64,000 nt of DNA from assembly GCA_027620655.1 (NCBI GenBank), contig JAQCDS010000005.1, forward strand, positions 1 to 64,000, read 5' to 3'. Made by a program: the position numbers and the translations under genes. Shown here in pieces: positions 25,504 through 36,130 of this stretch. The notes beneath the pieces were generated by a model, which worked only from the letters and a program-made list of their open reading frames with translations, was not told the DNA's origin and made no database searches. Every line of letters begins with the position of its first letter. The first letter of the stretch is position 1. The DNA comes from Bacteroidota bacterium. Its GTDB lineage: Bacteria > Bacteroidota > Bacteroidia > Flavobacteriales > Flavobacteriaceae.

Positions 25504-26760
25504 TTAAAGCTCAAAATCTGTTTTAATTGCTTCAACATAATCCAGTTTTTCCCAAGTAAAAAGTTCTACATCCAACACCCGTTTTTCGCCATTGGGCAGA
25601 TAAAATACCTTTTCCACAGTTTCGTTTGTACGCCCCATATGACCATAAGCAGCGGTTTCGCTATACATGGGCGATCGTAATTTTAGACGTTGTTCAATGG
25701 CTGCGGGACGTAGATCAAAAAGCGCTGCAATCTTTTGTGCAATAGCCCCATCGCTGAGGTCTACTTTGGCCGTGCCATAAGTGTCTACAAAAACTCCCAT
25801 TGGTTCTGCCACACCAATGGCATAGCTGACTTGGACTAAAATTTCTGAACATACGCCTGCAGCAACCATATTTTTGGCAATATGACGCATCGCATAGGCC
25901 GCTGATCGGTCTACTTTACTTGGGTCTTTTCCAGAAAATGCACCACCGCCGTGCGCTCCTTTTCCGCCGTAGGTGTCTACAATAATTTTGCGTCCTGTAA
26001 GTCCAGTATCACCATGAGGGCCACCAATGACAAACTTTCCTGTAGGATTGATATGATAGGTAATATCATCATTAAAAAGTGCTTGAGTCGCCTTTGGTAA
26101 TTTTGAGATTACTCGTGGAATCAAAATGGCTTTGATATCTTTTTTAATTGTATCAAGCATTTCTTTTTCATCTTCCGAAAAATCATCGTGTTGAGTTGAA
26201 ATTACAATAGAATCAATGCGCAATGGCACATTATCGTCACTATATTCAATGGTGACCTGACTTTTGGAATCTGGTCGTAGATATGTAATTTCTTTATGTT
26301 CTCGGCGTAATTCTGCTAATTCTTTTAAAATCAGATGAGATAAATCTAAAGCCAAAGGCATGTAGTTTTCTGTTTCGTTGGTGGCATAACCAAACATCAT
26401 ACCTTGATCTCCAGCACCTTGATCTTCAGGATTTTCTTTGTCTACCCCTCTATTGATATCATCGGATTGCTCGTGAATGGCAGACAATACACCACATGAA
26501 TTGCCATCAAACATATATTCGCCTTTGGTGTAGCCAATTTTATTGATGGTCTCTCTAGCAATTTGTTGCACATCCAAATACGTCTTAGATTTGACTTCAC
26601 CAGCCAAAATAACTTGCCCTGTTGTCACCAAAGTTTCACAAGCGACTTTGGATTGTGGATCAAAAGCTAAAAAATGATCGATTATTGCATCACTTATCTG
26701 GTCTGCAACCTTGTCTGGGTGACCTTCAGAAACACTTTCAGATGTAAATAAATAACTCAT
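25504..26760 (-). CDS. metK: S-adenosylmethionine synthetase
   Basis: [53 protein letters not shown]. Confidence 0.97.
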
Positions 26761-26773
26761 AATTTAGTTTTAT

Positions 26774-26857
26774 GAGGAAAAATAAGTGCAACAAGCTAAA
26801 AGGAATTACTGCTTTAGCTTTTTTTTATGAGGTTGCAATCAGATCAAATTTATCCTC
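26774..26857 (-). ncRNA. Structured metK 5' leader, candidate SAM riboswitch (class unresolved)
   Basis: RNA strand: nested stems GAGGAUAAAU/AUUUUUCCUC (1 mismatch), UGCAAC/GUUGCA, AAGCUAAA/UUUAGCUU; conserved-looking CUGAUUGCAACC and GCUAAAG segments; directly precedes metK. Confidence 0.5.
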
Positions 26858-26870
26858 TATTAGTCGACTG

Positions 26871-28915: not shown

Positions 28916-28945
28916 TTTGTTTTGAAAAAAAAATATTTACTTTAG
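28916..28945 (+). promoter_or_regulatory. Candidate promoter of the aromatic amino acid operon
   Basis: TTTG-N18-TACTTTAG, close to TTTG-N19-TAnnTTTG (one mismatch in the -7 box), about 17 bp upstream of the leader ORF. Confidence 0.5.
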
Positions 28946-28961
28946 CCGTTCATTATCTATA

Positions 28962-29039
28962 ATGAAACACACAAATTATACAACATATAGCTGGTTTTAT
29001 TTCTTTTTTAGCGAAAAGAACGAGACTTTGTTTGTATAA
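28962..29039 (+). CDS. Aromatic-rich attenuator leader peptide (25 aa) MKHTNYTTYSWFYFFFSEKNETLFV
   Basis: ATG...TAA read directly; 8 of residues 6-16 are Y/W/F incl. WFYFFF; followed by alternative terminator/antiterminator stems. Confidence 0.85.
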   Translation: MKHTNYTTYSWFYFFFSEKNETLFV

Positions 29040-29070
29040 TTTTAAACAATAAATTTAAATGTAAGTCTCG
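29021..29070 (+). promoter_or_regulatory. Antiterminator pairing of the aromatic attenuator
   Basis: cgagactt (29021-29028) pairs perfectly with aagtctcg (29063-29070); inner tgttt/aaaca stem extends it. Confidence 0.8.
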
Positions 29071-29094
29071 GTCCAAAAGCCGAGATTTTTTTTT
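29063..29094 (+). terminator. Attenuator terminator of the aromatic amino acid operon
   Basis: aagtctcggt-ccaaaa-gccgagattttttttt; 9 T immediately before the pheA ATG. Confidence 0.88.
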
Positions 29095-29916
29095 ATGATA
29101 AAAAAAGTTGCCATACAAGGAATTCAAGGATCATTTCACGATATCGTTTCAAAAAATTATTTTTTGAACGCTGTTGAAACCTTACCTTTTTTGACATTCA
29201 ATGAAGTGGTGTGCAGTCTTGCTCAACATAAAGCTGATGCAGCGATTATGGCACTTGAAAATTCTATTGCAGGTTCAATTATTCCAAATTATGCATTAAT
29301 TGATACTAATGAACTTCATATAACAGGGGAATATTATTTAGACGTACAGCATAATCTAATGGCGCTATCTGGCCAAAATATAATGGATATCAAAGAAGTT
29401 CACTCACATCCAATGGCTTTATTGCAGTGTAAAGTGTTTTTTGATCAATATCCACATATCAAATTGGTAGAGGATAGCGATACGGCAGAAGTGGCGAAAC
29501 GAGTTCATGACCAGCAACTTCTAGGTATTGCAGCCATTGCAAGCGAAGCTGCAGCCGAAATTTATCAATTGAAAATATTAGCGAAAAGCATTCAAACGAT
29601 CAAGCAAAACGAAACCCGATTTGTTATTGTAGAACGCCATCAAAATTCATCTGCAACGATTAATAAAGCCTCATTAAAATTCATGTTAGACCACAAACGA
29701 GGAAGTTTGGCTGCGATGCTAAATGTGATGAGTGACTGCAAATTGAACTTGACAAAAATACAATCTCTACCAAAAATTGATACTCCTTGGAAATATGCTT
29801 TTTTCGTGGATGTCACCTTTGATGCCTATGAAGATTATCAAAAAGCAAAGTCTATTATGACCATTATGGCTGAAGAATTTAAAGTTTTAGGAGAATATAA
29901 AAATGCTAAACAATGA
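29095..29916 (+). CDS. pheA: Prephenate dehydratase with C-terminal ACT domain
   Basis: VAIQGIQGSFHD; ENSIAGSI; NETRFVIVERH; ACT region. Confidence 0.93.
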   Translation: MIKKVAIQGIQGSFHDIVSKNYFLNAVETLPFLTFNEVVCSLAQHKADAAIMALENSIAGSIIPNYALIDTNELHITGEYYLDVQHNLMALSGQNIMDIKEVHSHPMALLQCKVFFDQYPHIKLVEDSDTAEVAKRVHDQQLLGIAAIASEAAAEIYQLKILAKSIQTIKQNETRFVIVERHQNSSATINKASLKFMLDHKRGSLAAMLNVMSDCKLNLTKIQSLPKIDTPWKYAFFVDVTFDAYEDYQKAKSIMTIMAEEFKVLGEYKNAKQ

Positions 29917-31058
29917 GTAGTGTAGCCCATCGATTACATACTGTTGAAGAGTATTATTTTTCAAGAAAATTGAAGGAAGTACGCGCGCTCTTAACAGATG
30001 GTAAACCAATAATTAATTTGGGGATAGGAAGTCCAGATTTACCACCGCCACCACAAGTAGTTGAAGCACTCAATACTAGTCTTTCAGATGTAACCGCACA
30101 CAAATATCAGAGTTATCAAGGGTTGCCAGAACTAAGAATGGCTATTTCTGATTTTTACAAAAAGAATTATGATGTAGAATTGAATTCTGAATCTGAAATT
30201 CTCCCACTCATGGGAAGTAAAGAAGGAATTATGCATATTTCGATGGCATATCTCAATGAAGGTGATGCGGTACTTATTCCAAATCCTGGCTATCCAACCT
30301 ACAGCTCTGTTACAAAGCTAATGGGGGCAACGCCAATTTTTTATGATTTAAAATACGAATCGCAATGGCAACCAAATCTTGATGAATTATCAAAAATGGA
30401 CTTGTCTAAAGTAAAACTCATGTGGGTGAATTATCCACATATGCCAACAGGAACAAAGGCATCAAAATTGCACTTATCTGCGTTGATTCAATTTGCGAAA
30501 GCACACAATATTTTATTGATTAATGACAATCCATATAGCTTTATTTTAAATGATAATCCAACAAGTATTTTCAATTTTGAGGGGGCCAAAGATGTTTGTT
30601 TAGAGCTAAATTCTTTGAGTAAATCGTTCAATATGGCGGGTTGGCGTGTGGGCATGCTTTCAGGTGCTGCACGTCACATAGAAAATGTCATTAAGGTAAA
30701 AAGTAATATGGATTCTGGAATGTTTTATGGTGTTCAAAAAGGAGCTGTAGAGGCACTTAAATCATCAACACAATGGTTTAAGGAGTTGAATGCTGTTTAT
30801 GAAAAACGCCGACAACTTGTTTGGCAATTGGCCACGCAATTGGGTTGTGATTTTGATAAAAAAACATCAGGAATGTTTGTTTGGGCAAAACTTCCGCTAG
30901 GCATCGACTCAGAGGAATTTATTGATGAATTACTTTATAAGAAAAATATATTTATAGCTCCTGGAACTATTTTTGGTTCCAATGGAAATGGATATGTTCG
31001 TTTCTCTCTTTGCGCATCAGAAAAGTCTATTAATGAAGCCATAAAACGTACTGTATGA
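29913..31058 (+). CDS. Class I/II PLP-dependent aminotransferase (aromatic pathway)
   Basis: NLGIGSPDLPPP; NPGYPTYSSV; LNSLSKSFNMAGWRVGM; ATGA overlap with pheA. Confidence 0.92.
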   Translation: MSSVAHRLHTVEEYYFSRKLKEVRALLTDGKPIINLGIGSPDLPPPPQVVEALNTSLSDVTAHKYQSYQGLPELRMAISDFYKKNYDVELNSESEILPLMGSKEGIMHISMAYLNEGDAVLIPNPGYPTYSSVTKLMGATPIFYDLKYESQWQPNLDELSKMDLSKVKLMWVNYPHMPTGTKASKLHLSALIQFAKAHNILLINDNPYSFILNDNPTSIFNFEGAKDVCLELNSLSKSFNMAGWRVGMLSGAARHIENVIKVKSNMDSGMFYGVQKGAVEALKSSTQWFKELNAVYEKRRQLVWQLATQLGCDFDKKTSGMFVWAKLPLGIDSEEFIDELLYKKNIFIAPGTIFGSNGNGYVRFSLCASEKSINEAIKRTV

Positions 31059-31906
31059 AAAATATATATGTCATAGGGGTTGGACTCATTGGAGGTAGTT
31101 TTGCTTTAGATTTAAAAGCTCTAAAACCTGATGTTGTTGTGTATGGAATAGATCATAATGAAGCGCATTTGACCACAGCATTAGAATTAGGATTGATAGA
31201 TAAAAAGGCCATTTTGAATGATATTAAGAATGCCGATTTAGTAATTTTATCCATTCCTGTAAATGCGACATTAAAACTTCTTCCAACGCTTTTAGATCTT
31301 ATTCCAAAACAAGGGATTGTTGTTGATATGGGTTCTACAAAAGAGGCTATATGCAAGGTTGTAGATGACCATCCGAAACGATCACAGTTTTTGGCCAATC
31401 ATCCTATTGCAGGAACAGAATTTTCTGGACCAACAGCGGCACATGTGGGGTTATTCAAAAACAAAACTAATATCATTTGTGATATTGAAAAAACAGACAC
31501 AGAACGTTCAAAAAAGGTGATTTCAATTTTTGAATCTATTGGGATGCGTATTCGACATATGAACGCAAAAGATCATGACAAACACATTGCCTATGTGTCT
31601 CACCTGTCTCACATTAGCTCATTCATGCTTGGGAAAACCGTTATTGACAAAGAGAAAAACGAAAGCAATATTTTTGATATGGCTGGTAGTGGATTTGAGT
31701 CTACAGTACGGCTAGCAAAAAGTTCACCAGAGATGTGGACCCCAATTTTTGAACAAAATAAAACTAATGTTATTGAAACATTAGACGAGTATATTCAAAA
31801 TTTGACACACTTCAAAAAATTAATGGAGTCCGAAGATTTTGAAGCTATTCGAAACGAAATGAAAAACACAAATTATATAAAAACAATACTTAAAGGAATT
31901 TCTTAA
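31055..31906 (+). CDS. tyrA: Prephenate dehydrogenase
   Basis: GVGLIGGSFALDLK; HPIAGTEFSGP; HDKHIAYVSHLSHISSF. Confidence 0.92.
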   Translation: MKNIYVIGVGLIGGSFALDLKALKPDVVVYGIDHNEAHLTTALELGLIDKKAILNDIKNADLVILSIPVNATLKLLPTLLDLIPKQGIVVDMGSTKEAICKVVDDHPKRSQFLANHPIAGTEFSGPTAAHVGLFKNKTNIICDIEKTDTERSKKVISIFESIGMRIRHMNAKDHDKHIAYVSHLSHISSFMLGKTVIDKEKNESNIFDMAGSGFESTVRLAKSSPEMWTPIFEQNKTNVIETLDEYIQNLTHFKKLMESEDFEAIRNEMKNTNYIKTILKGIS

Positions 31907-31918
31907 ACCAAAACCACT

Positions 31919-33001
31919 ATGGAAAATAGTAAACAACTTAGAACATGGTTAGATGATTTAAAATTAGATCATCCACTAGTCATTGCAGGGCCATGCAGTG
32001 CAGAAACAGAAGAGCAAGTTTTAAAAATTGCTCACGAACTTAAAGACTCAGATGTTAGTTATTACAGAGCAGGGATTTGGAAACCTCGAACTCGCCCAGG
32101 TAATTTTGAAGGCGTTGGTGCTTTGGGTCTCAAATGGCTTCAAAAAGTAAAAGCCGAAACAGGACTAAAAACAGCAACAGAAGTAGCCAATAGAGCACAC
32201 GTAGAGTTGGCACTAGAACATGATATCGACTTACTTTGGATTGGTGCACGCTCAACAGTAAGTCCGTTTATTGTCCAAGAAATTGCAGATGCATTGGAGG
32301 GGACCGATAAAATTGTTTTGATTAAAAATCCTGTTAATCCAGACCTTGCATTATGGCTTGGTGCTGTAGAACGATTGGCTTCGGCAAATATTAAAAAATT
32401 AGGAGTCATTCATAGAGGGTTTTCAACTTATGAAAAATCAAAATATAGAAACAACCCAGAATGGCAATTGGCCATTGAGTTACAAACGAAATTTCCAGAC
32501 CTACCACTAATCAATGACCCTTCGCACATTACGGGAAGGCGTGATATGGTTTTTGATGTATGTCAAACAGCTTTGGATTTAAATTTTGATGGTCTAATGA
32601 TTGAAACTCATTTTGACCCCGATAATGCATGGAGTGATGCGGCACAACAAATTACACCAAGCACACTTATTCAGTACACTAAAGATTTAAAAATCCGTAA
32701 TGAAAGTATTACAGAAGCAGATTATAATAGTGAGCTTCAAAAATTACGTGCACAAATTGATGTCGCAGACAATCAACTTTTAGAAACATTAGGGAAAAGA
32801 ATGAAAGTTGCAGAAGCTATTGGGGCTCTAAAAAAAGAGAAAAATGTTGCCGTTTTACAAAGTAAACGTTGGAACGAAATTCTAGGTAAAATGGTTCTTG
32901 ATGGGGAGCAGCATAGTCTAAGTGAGGAGTTTATCCTGAAACTTTTTAAGGCCATTCATCAAGAATCCATCAATCATCAAAAACAAATTTTGAAAGGATA
33001 A
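31919..33001 (+). CDS. Bifunctional DAHP synthase / chorismate mutase (type II)
   Basis: VIAGPCSAETEEQ; GIWKPRTRPGNFEGVG; C-terminal LQKLRAQIDVADNQLLETLGKRMKVAEAIGALKKEKNVAVLQ. Confidence 0.94.
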   Translation: MENSKQLRTWLDDLKLDHPLVIAGPCSAETEEQVLKIAHELKDSDVSYYRAGIWKPRTRPGNFEGVGALGLKWLQKVKAETGLKTATEVANRAHVELALEHDIDLLWIGARSTVSPFIVQEIADALEGTDKIVLIKNPVNPDLALWLGAVERLASANIKKLGVIHRGFSTYEKSKYRNNPEWQLAIELQTKFPDLPLINDPSHITGRRDMVFDVCQTALDLNFDGLMIETHFDPDNAWSDAAQQITPSTLIQYTKDLKIRNESITEADYNSELQKLRAQIDVADNQLLETLGKRMKVAEAIGALKKEKNVAVLQSKRWNEILGKMVLDGEQHSLSEEFILKLFKAIHQESINHQKQILKG

Positions 33002-33102: not shown

Positions 33103-34053
33103 ATGACAGGAACGGTTTATAAATCGACAGGTAGTTGGTACACTGTCAAAGCTTTGAATGGTGCTTTTTACGAGTGCCGTATCAAAGGGAAATTCCGTAT
33201 GCAAGGTATTAAAAGCACAAATCCTATTGCAGTGGGTGATGTTGTTGATTTTGATTTAGAAACGAGTAATAATAAAGAGACCGGTGTCATTAAAACTATT
33301 CATACACGAAAAAATTATATTGTCAGAAAATCTGTAAATCTTTCCAAACAAACCCATATAATTGCGAGTAATATTGATCAGGTCTTTTTGTTGGTTACCA
33401 TCGACAACCCACCAACATTTACAAGTTTTATAGATCGTTTTTTGGTCACTGCTGAAGCTTATGGAATTAAAACCATTTTGTTGTTTAACAAAATGGATAC
33501 TTACGATAGTGATACTAAATCTATCGTAGAAAATTTGATTCAAATTTATACTAAAATTGGATACGATTGTCTTAAAATATCTGCCAAATTGAGTGAAAAT
33601 TTAGAAGCTGTAAAATTAAAAATGAATGGAAAAATTAGTATGTTTTCTGGACATTCTGGAGTAGGAAAATCGACACTTGTAAACACCATCGAACCTCAAC
33701 TGAATTTAAAGACCAAAGCCATTTCTGAGCAACATCAACAAGGTCAACATACAACTACTTTTGCGGAAATGTTTGATTTAAGTTTTGACGCTAGGATTAT
33801 TGACACCCCTGGGATTAAAGGATTTGGTGTTGTAGACATGGAGCCAGCAGAATTGGATCATTATTTTCCAGAGTTATTTGCCATAAAAACGCATTGTAAG
33901 TTTCACAATTGTCTTCATTTACATGAGCCAAAATGTGCTGTAAAAACAGCTGTTGATTCAGGCGAAATAGCGTCATCGCGCTACAAATCGTATCTGCAAA
34001 TTCTACAATGCGAAGAGGCTAATTATCGAACCGATTCATACGATACAGCATGA
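33103..34053 (+). CDS. rsgA: Ribosome small subunit-dependent GTPase A
   Basis: FSGHSGVGKSTLVN; DTPGIKGFGV; zinc motif CKFHNCLHLHEPKC. Confidence 0.95.
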   Translation: MTGTVYKSTGSWYTVKALNGAFYECRIKGKFRMQGIKSTNPIAVGDVVDFDLETSNNKETGVIKTIHTRKNYIVRKSVNLSKQTHIIASNIDQVFLLVTIDNPPTFTSFIDRFLVTAEAYGIKTILLFNKMDTYDSDTKSIVENLIQIYTKIGYDCLKISAKLSENLEAVKLKMNGKISMFSGHSGVGKSTLVNTIEPQLNLKTKAISEQHQQGQHTTTFAEMFDLSFDARIIDTPGIKGFGVVDMEPAELDHYFPELFAIKTHCKFHNCLHLHEPKCAVKTAVDSGEIASSRYKSYLQILQCEEANYRTDSYDTA

Positions 34054-34502
34054 GAGCAGTGATTCAAAGAGTTACAAGAGCAAGTGTAACTATTAATAAT
34101 AAAATTGAAGGTCAAATTGCATTAGGGGTTCTTATTTTTTTAGGTATTGTTGCTGAAGACACCTTAGAGGATATAAAATGGTTGAGTAAAAAAATTTCAA
34201 ACCTTAGGATATTTAGTGACGAAAATGACGTGATGAATTTATCTTTAATCGACCAAAATTTTGAGGCACTAGTTATTAGCCAATTTACGTTACATGCACA
34301 AACTAAAAAAGGCAATCGGCCTAGTTATATAAGAGCTGCACGACCAGAAATTGCAATACCATTGTATGAGGAGTTTATCCGTCAATTACAACACGATTTA
34401 GGCAAGGAAGTTCAGTCGGGGGTTTTTGGTGCAAACATGGAAATAGACCTTTTAAATGATGGCCCAGTTACTATTATCATTGATACAAAAAACCGTGAAT
34501 AA
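34050..34502 (+). CDS. dtd: D-aminoacyl-tRNA deacylase
   Basis: MRAVIQRVTRASVTI; ISQFTLHAQTKKGNRPSY; VQSGVFGANMEIDLLNDGPVTI. Confidence 0.96.
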   Translation: MRAVIQRVTRASVTINNKIEGQIALGVLIFLGIVAEDTLEDIKWLSKKISNLRIFSDENDVMNLSLIDQNFEALVISQFTLHAQTKKGNRPSYIRAARPEIAIPLYEEFIRQLQHDLGKEVQSGVFGANMEIDLLNDGPVTIIIDTKNRE

Positions 34503-34580
34503 TTCTTAGTTAATTTAAGACGATATTATTTGATATAAAAAGGACATTAACTACTTTAGTTCTTTGTAAAATAGAAAGTT

Positions 34581-34907
34581 ATGAATCTTCAAAACGCACA
34601 AGAAACAGTTGACCAATGGATTAAAACTCATGGGGTACGCTATTTTAATGAACTCACCAATATGGCACAACTTACAGAGGAAGTAGGGGAGGTAGCTCGT
34701 ATTATTGCACGCCGTTATGGAGAGCAAAGCGAAAAGGAATCTGATAAGAACAAAGATTTAGGTGAGGAATTGGCCGATGTTATTTTTGTGGTGCTTTGTT
34801 TGGCAAATCAAACGGGGGTAGATTTACAAGCCGCTTTTAACAAAAATCTAGATCTAAAGACAAAACGAGACCATAACCGTCATCATTCCAATCAAAAATT
34901 AAAATAG
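34581..34907 (+). CDS. MazG-like nucleotide pyrophosphohydrolase
   Basis: LTEEVGEVARIIARRYGEQ; DLGEELADVIFVVLCLANQTGVDL. Confidence 0.9.
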   Translation: MNLQNAQETVDQWIKTHGVRYFNELTNMAQLTEEVGEVARIIARRYGEQSEKESDKNKDLGEELADVIFVVLCLANQTGVDLQAAFNKNLDLKTKRDHNRHHSNQKLK

Positions 34908-34909
34908 AA

Positions 34910-36130
34910 GTGCAGATTCAACTGAAAAAATCCAAGATTAATTCATTTTCTGAATTGAAAATAACAGGTTCTAAAAGTGAATCGAACAGAGTTTTATTGC
35001 TTCAAGCACTATTTGAAGGATTAGAAATAAAAAACGTATCCAATTCTGATGACAGTCAATTGATGCAAAAAGCTCTAAAATCAAACTCTTCGGTTGTAGA
35101 TATTCATCATGCAGGAACAGCAATGCGTTTTTTGACTGCATATTATGCAACACGCTTGGGAAAAACAACAACACTAACAGGTTCTTCGCGAATGCAAGAA
35201 CGCCCAATTAAAATTTTAGTAGATGCATTGAACACTTTAGGAGCCTCAATTTCCTATACCAAAAATGATGGTTATCCACCCTTATTGATAGAAGGCAAAA
35301 CGCTTACAAAAAGCAACGTACAGATGAAAGCCAATGTTAGCAGTCAGTATATTTCTGCTTTACTACTCATTGCACCAACATTAGAAAATGGATTAACACT
35401 TCATTTGGAGGGAGAAATTACCTCTACACCATACATAAAAATGACACTTTCGTTGCTCAATGAATTGGGTGTTCAAACAAGTTTTGAAACCAATACCATT
35501 ACGGTATTTCCATTTCGTCAATTAACTTCAAAAACTTTTGTTGTAGAATCAGATTGGTCTTCAGCATCTTACTTTTACAGTATTGTTGCGCTTAGTCCAG
35601 TGGGCACTCAAATTGCTATTTCAGAATATAAGTCCACAAGTTTACAGGGTGATGCAATACTTCAAAAAATTTATAAAGATTTGGGTGTAGAAAGTACATT
35701 TAATGGAACTACGCTCATTTTAAAAAGAATTGAAACCTCATTTCCAAATTGCTTATCTATTGATTTATCAAATACTCCAGACATCGCACAAACTATTGCT
35801 ATAACATGTTTAGGATTGAAAATAGATTGTGATTTGACGGGGTTACACACTCTAAAGATTAAAGAAACAGACAGGTTGGTGGCCCTTCAAAATGAAATTC
35901 AAAAATTAGGAACAACCATAACTATTACAAATAACAGCTTACAACTGAAATCGCCATTGGATTTAAATTCAGATGTTGTGATTAGCCCCTATAACGATCA
36001 TCGAATGGCTATGGCATTTGCACCACTTGCCCTAAAAACACCACTTTTTATTGATGATGCAGAGGTGGTTTCAAAATCATATCCTGACTTTTGGAATGAT
36101 CTTAAAGCTATTGGATTTACAATAGAGTAA
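34910..36130 (+). CDS. aroA: 3-phosphoshikimate 1-carboxyvinyltransferase (GTG start)
   Basis: ITGSKSESNRVLLLQAL; HHAGTAMRFLTAYYA; SSRMQERPI; KETDRLVALQNEI; YNDHRMAMAFAPLAL. Confidence 0.94.
   Translation: MQIQLKKSKINSFSELKITGSKSESNRVLLLQALFEGLEIKNVSNSDDSQLMQKALKSNSSVVDIHHAGTAMRFLTAYYATRLGKTTTLTGSSRMQERPIKILVDALNTLGASISYTKNDGYPPLLIEGKTLTKSNVQMKANVSSQYISALLLIAPTLENGLTLHLEGEITSTPYIKMTLSLLNELGVQTSFETNTITVFPFRQLTSKTFVVESDWSSASYFYSIVALSPVGTQIAISEYKSTSLQGDAILQKIYKDLGVESTFNGTTLILKRIETSFPNCLSIDLSNTPDIAQTIAITCLGLKIDCDLTGLHTLKIKETDRLVALQNEIQKLGTTITITNNSLQLKSPLDLNSDVVISPYNDHRMAMAFAPLALKTPLFIDDAEVVSKSYPDFWNDLKAIGFTIE

Follow-up and report, generated by a model that had tools for sequence, protein, structure and literature searches.

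A described system with the same logic as the element presented here is the pheA attenuator of Enterobacteria (Rfam family Phe_leader, RF01859), in which a leader peptide, an antiterminator, and a terminator precede pheA. The ilvGMEDA and ilvBN leaders of Enterobacteria each respond to more than one end product of a branched pathway. To our knowledge, attenuation is little documented in Bacteroidota, a phylum in which translation is largely independent of Shine-Dalgarno sites. The Rfam family Bacteroid-trp (RF01692) represents a Bacteroidetes leader that also precedes an aromatic operon (PMC2864571). A 2021 study of Flavobacterium psychrophilum (PMC9723704) describes, upstream of pheA, a structured 5' element without an Rfam match and conserved in other Flavobacteriaceae genera, along with strong hints of attenuation by leader peptides ahead of amino-acid operons. 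The passages of its main text on the pheA element give no anatomy, codons, or covariation, and among open-licence papers we found no description of pheA leader anatomy or of mixed aromatic codons.

Here, we predict with high confidence, from sequence and its comparison among relatives, that the region upstream of pheA in a marine Bacteroidota bacterium of the family Flavobacteriaceae acts as a ribosome-mediated attenuator of transcription, of the trp/phe type, for a pheA-aminotransferase-tyrA-DAHP synthase/chorismate mutase operon. The window, meaning the whole stretch of DNA that was analyzed, spans 64,000 nt (GCA_027620655.1, contig JAQCDS010000005.1, positions 1 to 64,000, forward strand); coordinates below are window positions on the plus strand unless noted. 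The source genome (1.9 Mb, 99.8% complete) has uncultured Flavobacteriaceae and Formosa-labelled assemblies as its nearest named relatives, and one relative encodes a PheA that is 90% identical. Pfam agrees with the operon content proposed by an earlier sequence-only reading of this DNA: pheA, encoding prephenate dehydratase (29095 to 29916; PF00800, 180 bits), is followed with a 4-nt overlap by a class I/II aminotransferase gene (29913 to 31058; PF00155), by tyrA, encoding prephenate dehydrogenase (31055 to 31906; PF02153 and PF20463), and by a gene for DAHP synthase fused to a type II chorismate mutase (31919 to 33001; PF00793 and PF01817). These genes overlap or nearly do, and the aminotransferase gene adjoins pheA in 45 of 50 related loci. 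Further downstream on the same strand (33103 to 36130) lie rsgA, a D-Tyr-tRNA deacylase gene, a MazG-like gene, and the EPSP synthase gene aroA, to which the attenuated transcript may extend. On the minus strand, an ordinary SAM-II riboswitch (26804 to 26863; RF01726, 64 bits) lies upstream of a gene (25504 to 26760) judged from its sequence to encode S-adenosylmethionine synthetase.

The leader is preceded by a promoter-like element of the Bacteroidetes type (28916 to 28945), composed of TTTG (28916 to 28919), an 18-nt spacer, and TACTTTAG (28938 to 28945). The latter is one base off TAnnTTTG, which we take to be the Bacteroidetes-type promoter consensus. In 141 of 157 leaders, the variant TAnnTT[TA]G lies no more than 60 nt ahead of the leader start, at a median distance of 25 nt, compared with 15.5 expected from base shuffles; transcription of the present leader is expected to start near 28950. 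A 25-codon open reading frame encoding MKHTNYTTYSWFYFFFSEKNETLFV runs from the ATG at 28962 to a TAA stop codon at 29037 to 29039 and carries the predicted regulatory codons W11, F12, Y13, F14, F15, and F16 (28992 to 29009). The sequence-only reading had listed aromatic residues at codons 6, 9, and 11 to 16; all are present, and a further Phe at codon 24, which lies beyond the switch point modeled below, had been left out. Downstream of the aromatic run, strand 2 (CGAGACTT, 29021 to 29028) forms the 5' strand of the putative antiterminator by pairing with AAGTCTCG (29063 to 29070). The latter is contained in strand 3 (AAGTCTCGGT, 29063 to 29072), which is common to antiterminator and terminator. 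The intrinsic terminator (29063 to 29094), identified by consensus scan and covariation, joins strands 3 and 4 as AAGTCTCGGT-CCAAAA-GCCGAGATTT, followed by nine T residues (29086 to 29094). Every coordinate given in the sequence-only reading for the aromatic ORF with its WFYFFF run, the strand pairing, and the terminator with its T-run matches the sequence. In the minimum-energy fold, a possible strand 1 (28973 to 28983) additionally pairs with 29032 to 29042, forming a 1:2 helix. Folding of the 166-nt leader is better than that of any of 200 dinucleotide shuffles (z = -3.6). A consensus scan of 2 kb gave two matches, the terminator and the same hairpin on the minus strand.

The T-run ends right at the pheA ATG (29095), and in this genus it leads straight into the start codon, as would suit a leader that acts mainly on pheA translation through a hairpin hiding the start codon. 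Across 158 leaders, however, the distance between hairpin and pheA has a median of 26 nt and a maximum of 134 nt, and a T-run is part of every detected case. We consider this explanation very improbable, and the least probable of those weighed in this work; hiding of the pheA start may be an added effect here rather than a conserved function.

Conservation was assessed with a detector requiring a short ORF with a stretch of 8 residues of which 5 or more are aromatic, followed by a hairpin and a T-run within 110 nt. It was positive in 164 of 176 regions upstream of pheA, all from the class Bacteroidia, compared with 4 of 880 dinucleotide shuffles and 4 of 176 reverse complements. Among 52 genes of the window, it returned a single positive, the pheA leader itself. 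The leader is present in 115 of 120 sampled Flavobacteriaceae genomes. Outside the family, 13 of 20 have it (7 of 11 in different families of the same order, 6 of 9 in different orders of the class). None of 28 PF00800 loci sampled in the phylum outside Bacteroidia showed it; this sample is biased in that it consists of the best-scoring matches. The sequence-only reading had named a lack of conservation as grounds for rejecting its proposal; leader and alternative stems alike recur across Flavobacteriaceae and further families. Inspection of the 12 regions without a leader showed that in some pheA lies close behind another gene, while others are plain intergenic regions. In one of them (L067), repeats fill the 450 nt read, and a leader may lie further upstream. 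In two loci from other orders of the class (L177 and L176), pheA closely follows another gene, apparently aroA in L177 as judged from C-terminal sequence, and no leader stands before pheA; there, the leader may precede the first gene of a longer operon. A covariance model found exactly one site in the source genome, at the pheA leader. Matches to this model away from pheA were chance-like upon inspection, and none carried an evident aromatic leader run.

Of all parts of the element, the terminator is conserved best, as would be expected if it were a plain terminator, or one controlled by a protein or ligand, with the short ORF being incidental. However, the aromatic codons are conserved in frame: across 158 leaders, TGG occurs 109 times in frame versus 4 and 22 times in the other frames, and TTC occurs 255 times versus 4 and 17. 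The spacing between ORF and strand is also nearly fixed, with strand 2 beginning a median of 11 nt past the last aromatic codon. In addition, an Rfam scan at gathering and permissive thresholds gave no family that fits the pheA leader, and neither a riboswitch nor a T-box was detected at that position. We regard an incidental ORF as highly improbable, and the attenuator, in which the aromatic codons are read by a ribosome, as the explanation to be carried forward.

The pairing between strands 2 and 3 was evaluated across the same 158 leaders. Its mean energy is -12.6 kcal/mol for native pairs versus -8.9 kcal/mol when strand 3 is taken from dissimilar relatives, and in 148 of 158 leaders no more than 5% of shuffled strands do equally well. 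Strand 3 TCTC goes with GAG in strand 2 in 82 of 92 cases, and TCCC goes with GGG in 39 of 40. The Fisher test for this association (p = 2e-23, before allowing for relatedness) overstates independence, because the main change occurred roughly five times on the PheA tree and few independent contrasts are supported. Partners are exchanged together, as in CGAGAC/GTCTCG, CGGGAC/GTCCCG, CAGGGC/GTCCTG, and CGGGGTTT/AAATCCCG. Strand 4 changes along with them, and one position of strand 3 covaries with both strand 2 and strand 4, as is predicted for a mutually exclusive antiterminator and terminator. Nested in the GTCCCG clade, one lineage (L107) has GTCTCG instead, and its strands 2 and 4 match.

In alignment A1, both-sided changes were counted in 22 cells for the 2:3 pairing and 18 cells for the 3:4 pairing; none of 500 shuffles reached these values, and the signal was lost on sliding. 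Across 41 divergent sequences, 99.6% of the terminator (3:4) pair cells are standard, and both-sided changes occur among them. Because strand 2 is shifted by one base in several rows of the MAFFT alignment, alignment-based covariation underestimates the 2:3 pairing. The covariation rests on few independent changes: the main covarying position changed about 5 times on the PheA tree, with 2 independent pairs when only well-supported branches are counted, and such contrast counts are too few for significance testing. The 1:2 helix, which would set the ribosome-free basal state or serve as a pause or protector hairpin, is weakly supported across relatives, where 64 of 158 leaders beat 95% of shuffles, and is not clearly conserved.

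The geometry of a translating ribosome on this leader was modeled by assuming that the ribosome covers -14 to +16 nt relative to the P-site codon. With RNA polymerase just past strand 3, the modeled antiterminator probability is 1.0 when the A site is at codons 6 to 16 and at most 0.05 from codon 17 on, which places the switch point exactly at the end of WFYFFF, where F16 is the last codon of the run. Since F24 lies past this point, stalling there would favor termination. For a ribosome stalled at the last aromatic codon, the median distance from its 3' edge to the start of strand 2 across 158 leaders is 1 nt, with strand 2 lying beyond the edge. Once at the stop codon, a ribosome covers a mean of 94% of strand 2, with full cover in 82% of leaders. 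This modeling agrees with the proposal in the sequence-only reading that 29021 to 29028 would be free when the ribosome stalls at WFYFFF and covered when it reaches the stop codon. More broadly, its assignment to classical attenuation holds up well: ORF, antiterminator pairing, and terminator are conserved and covary, and the spacing from stall site to strand is tight. In equilibrium modeling of the full-length RNA, the terminator is favored in nearly every ribosome state. Once strand 4 exists, equilibrium favors the terminator, and we infer that the switch must be kinetic, with the order of events deciding the outcome. Kinetic switching is accepted for the E. coli trp attenuator.

The proposed mechanism is as follows. 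A ribosome would begin the 25-codon leader after RNA polymerase has started near 28950. When too little tRNA-Phe or tRNA-Tyr (in this genome, probably also tRNA-Trp) is charged, the ribosome would stall within W11 to F16. Strand 2 could then pair with strand 3 (29021 to 29028 with 29063 to 29070) before strand 4 is made; no terminator would form, and the operon would be transcribed. When the aromatic codons are read fast, the ribosome would instead reach the stop codon and cover strand 2, leaving strand 3 to pair with strand 4, and transcription would end in the U-run just before pheA. The same stall-site geometry is equally compatible with nascent-peptide arrest, in which the leader peptide itself, responding to free Phe, Tyr, or Trp as its ligand, would halt the ribosome in a TnaC-like manner without any shortage of charged tRNA; being hydrophobic and aromatic, such a peptide could act within the exit tunnel. 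As a rule, arrest peptides depend on particular residues at set positions. Here, composition is kept and order is not (WFYFFF, FYFYFFF, YNWYYFFF, and FYFFFYF, among others, interchange), and residues outside the run vary. Moreover, the sign would be wrong, as a surplus of end product would turn the operon on. We consider arrest of this kind very unlikely and favor attenuation that responds to tRNA charging.

Which tRNAs the attenuator would sense can be gauged from codon content. The sequence-only reading had proposed that the leader senses all three aromatic tRNA pools. For Phe and Tyr, strong support comes from the presence of their codons in 158 of 158 leaders. The proposal is less secure for Trp, which is represented by a single codon and is missing from one third of leaders: a Trp codon occurs in 107 of 158, with exactly one in 105 of these, and a 79-tip tree implies about 12 gains or losses of it. 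It is placed mostly 5 or 9 to 10 codons before the end of the aromatic run. By these counts, Trp sensing is not universal and lies outside the predicted core design; it is likely in those genomes that have the codon, among them the present one. We judge as evenly balanced the broader proposal that a Bacteroidia-wide attenuator reads Phe, Tyr, and Trp by means of one specifically placed Trp codon ahead of a Phe/Tyr run, such that a shortage in any one pool would activate the common entry step (DAHP synthase), with the trp branch left to a separate WWW leader.

As candidates for the pheA leader, two Rfam families were set aside: Phe_leader RF01859 scored 23.4 bits (E = 0.07) against a cutoff of 55 bits, and Bacteroid-trp RF01692 (cutoff, 49 bits) gave no match there. 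The latter does match elsewhere in this genome, at 44.5 bits, on the minus strand before trpE (G000:C16:141151-141257; locus L190), where the leader MNRKNQNTWWWTTRSQKS has three consecutive Trp codons followed by a terminator; among the genus relatives, no Bacteroid-trp match reaches the cutoff. Unlike Bacteroid-trp, whose leader in this genome is Trp-only and located at the trp operon, the pheA leader mixes aromatic codons. In contrast to Phe_leader, it has Phe, Tyr, and Trp codons, belongs to a different phylum, and precedes an operon that adds tyrA and DAHP synthase. The F. psychrophilum pheA element (PMC9723704), which concerns the same gene in the same family and is likened here by its published description, is very probably the same element. 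The design resembles the ilvGMEDA and ilvBN leaders in answering to several end products, which are branched-chain amino acids there and would be aromatic amino acids here. The mechanism is classical; what is new is the anatomy, the reach, and the mixed-aromatic design. Kept in most Flavobacteriaceae and in further Bacteroidia, this leader lies outside Rfam and outside ORF tracks with a length cutoff. It would explain joint control of the first committed step and of the Phe and Tyr branches, and it lends itself readily to studying how three tRNA pools are weighed by a single leader.
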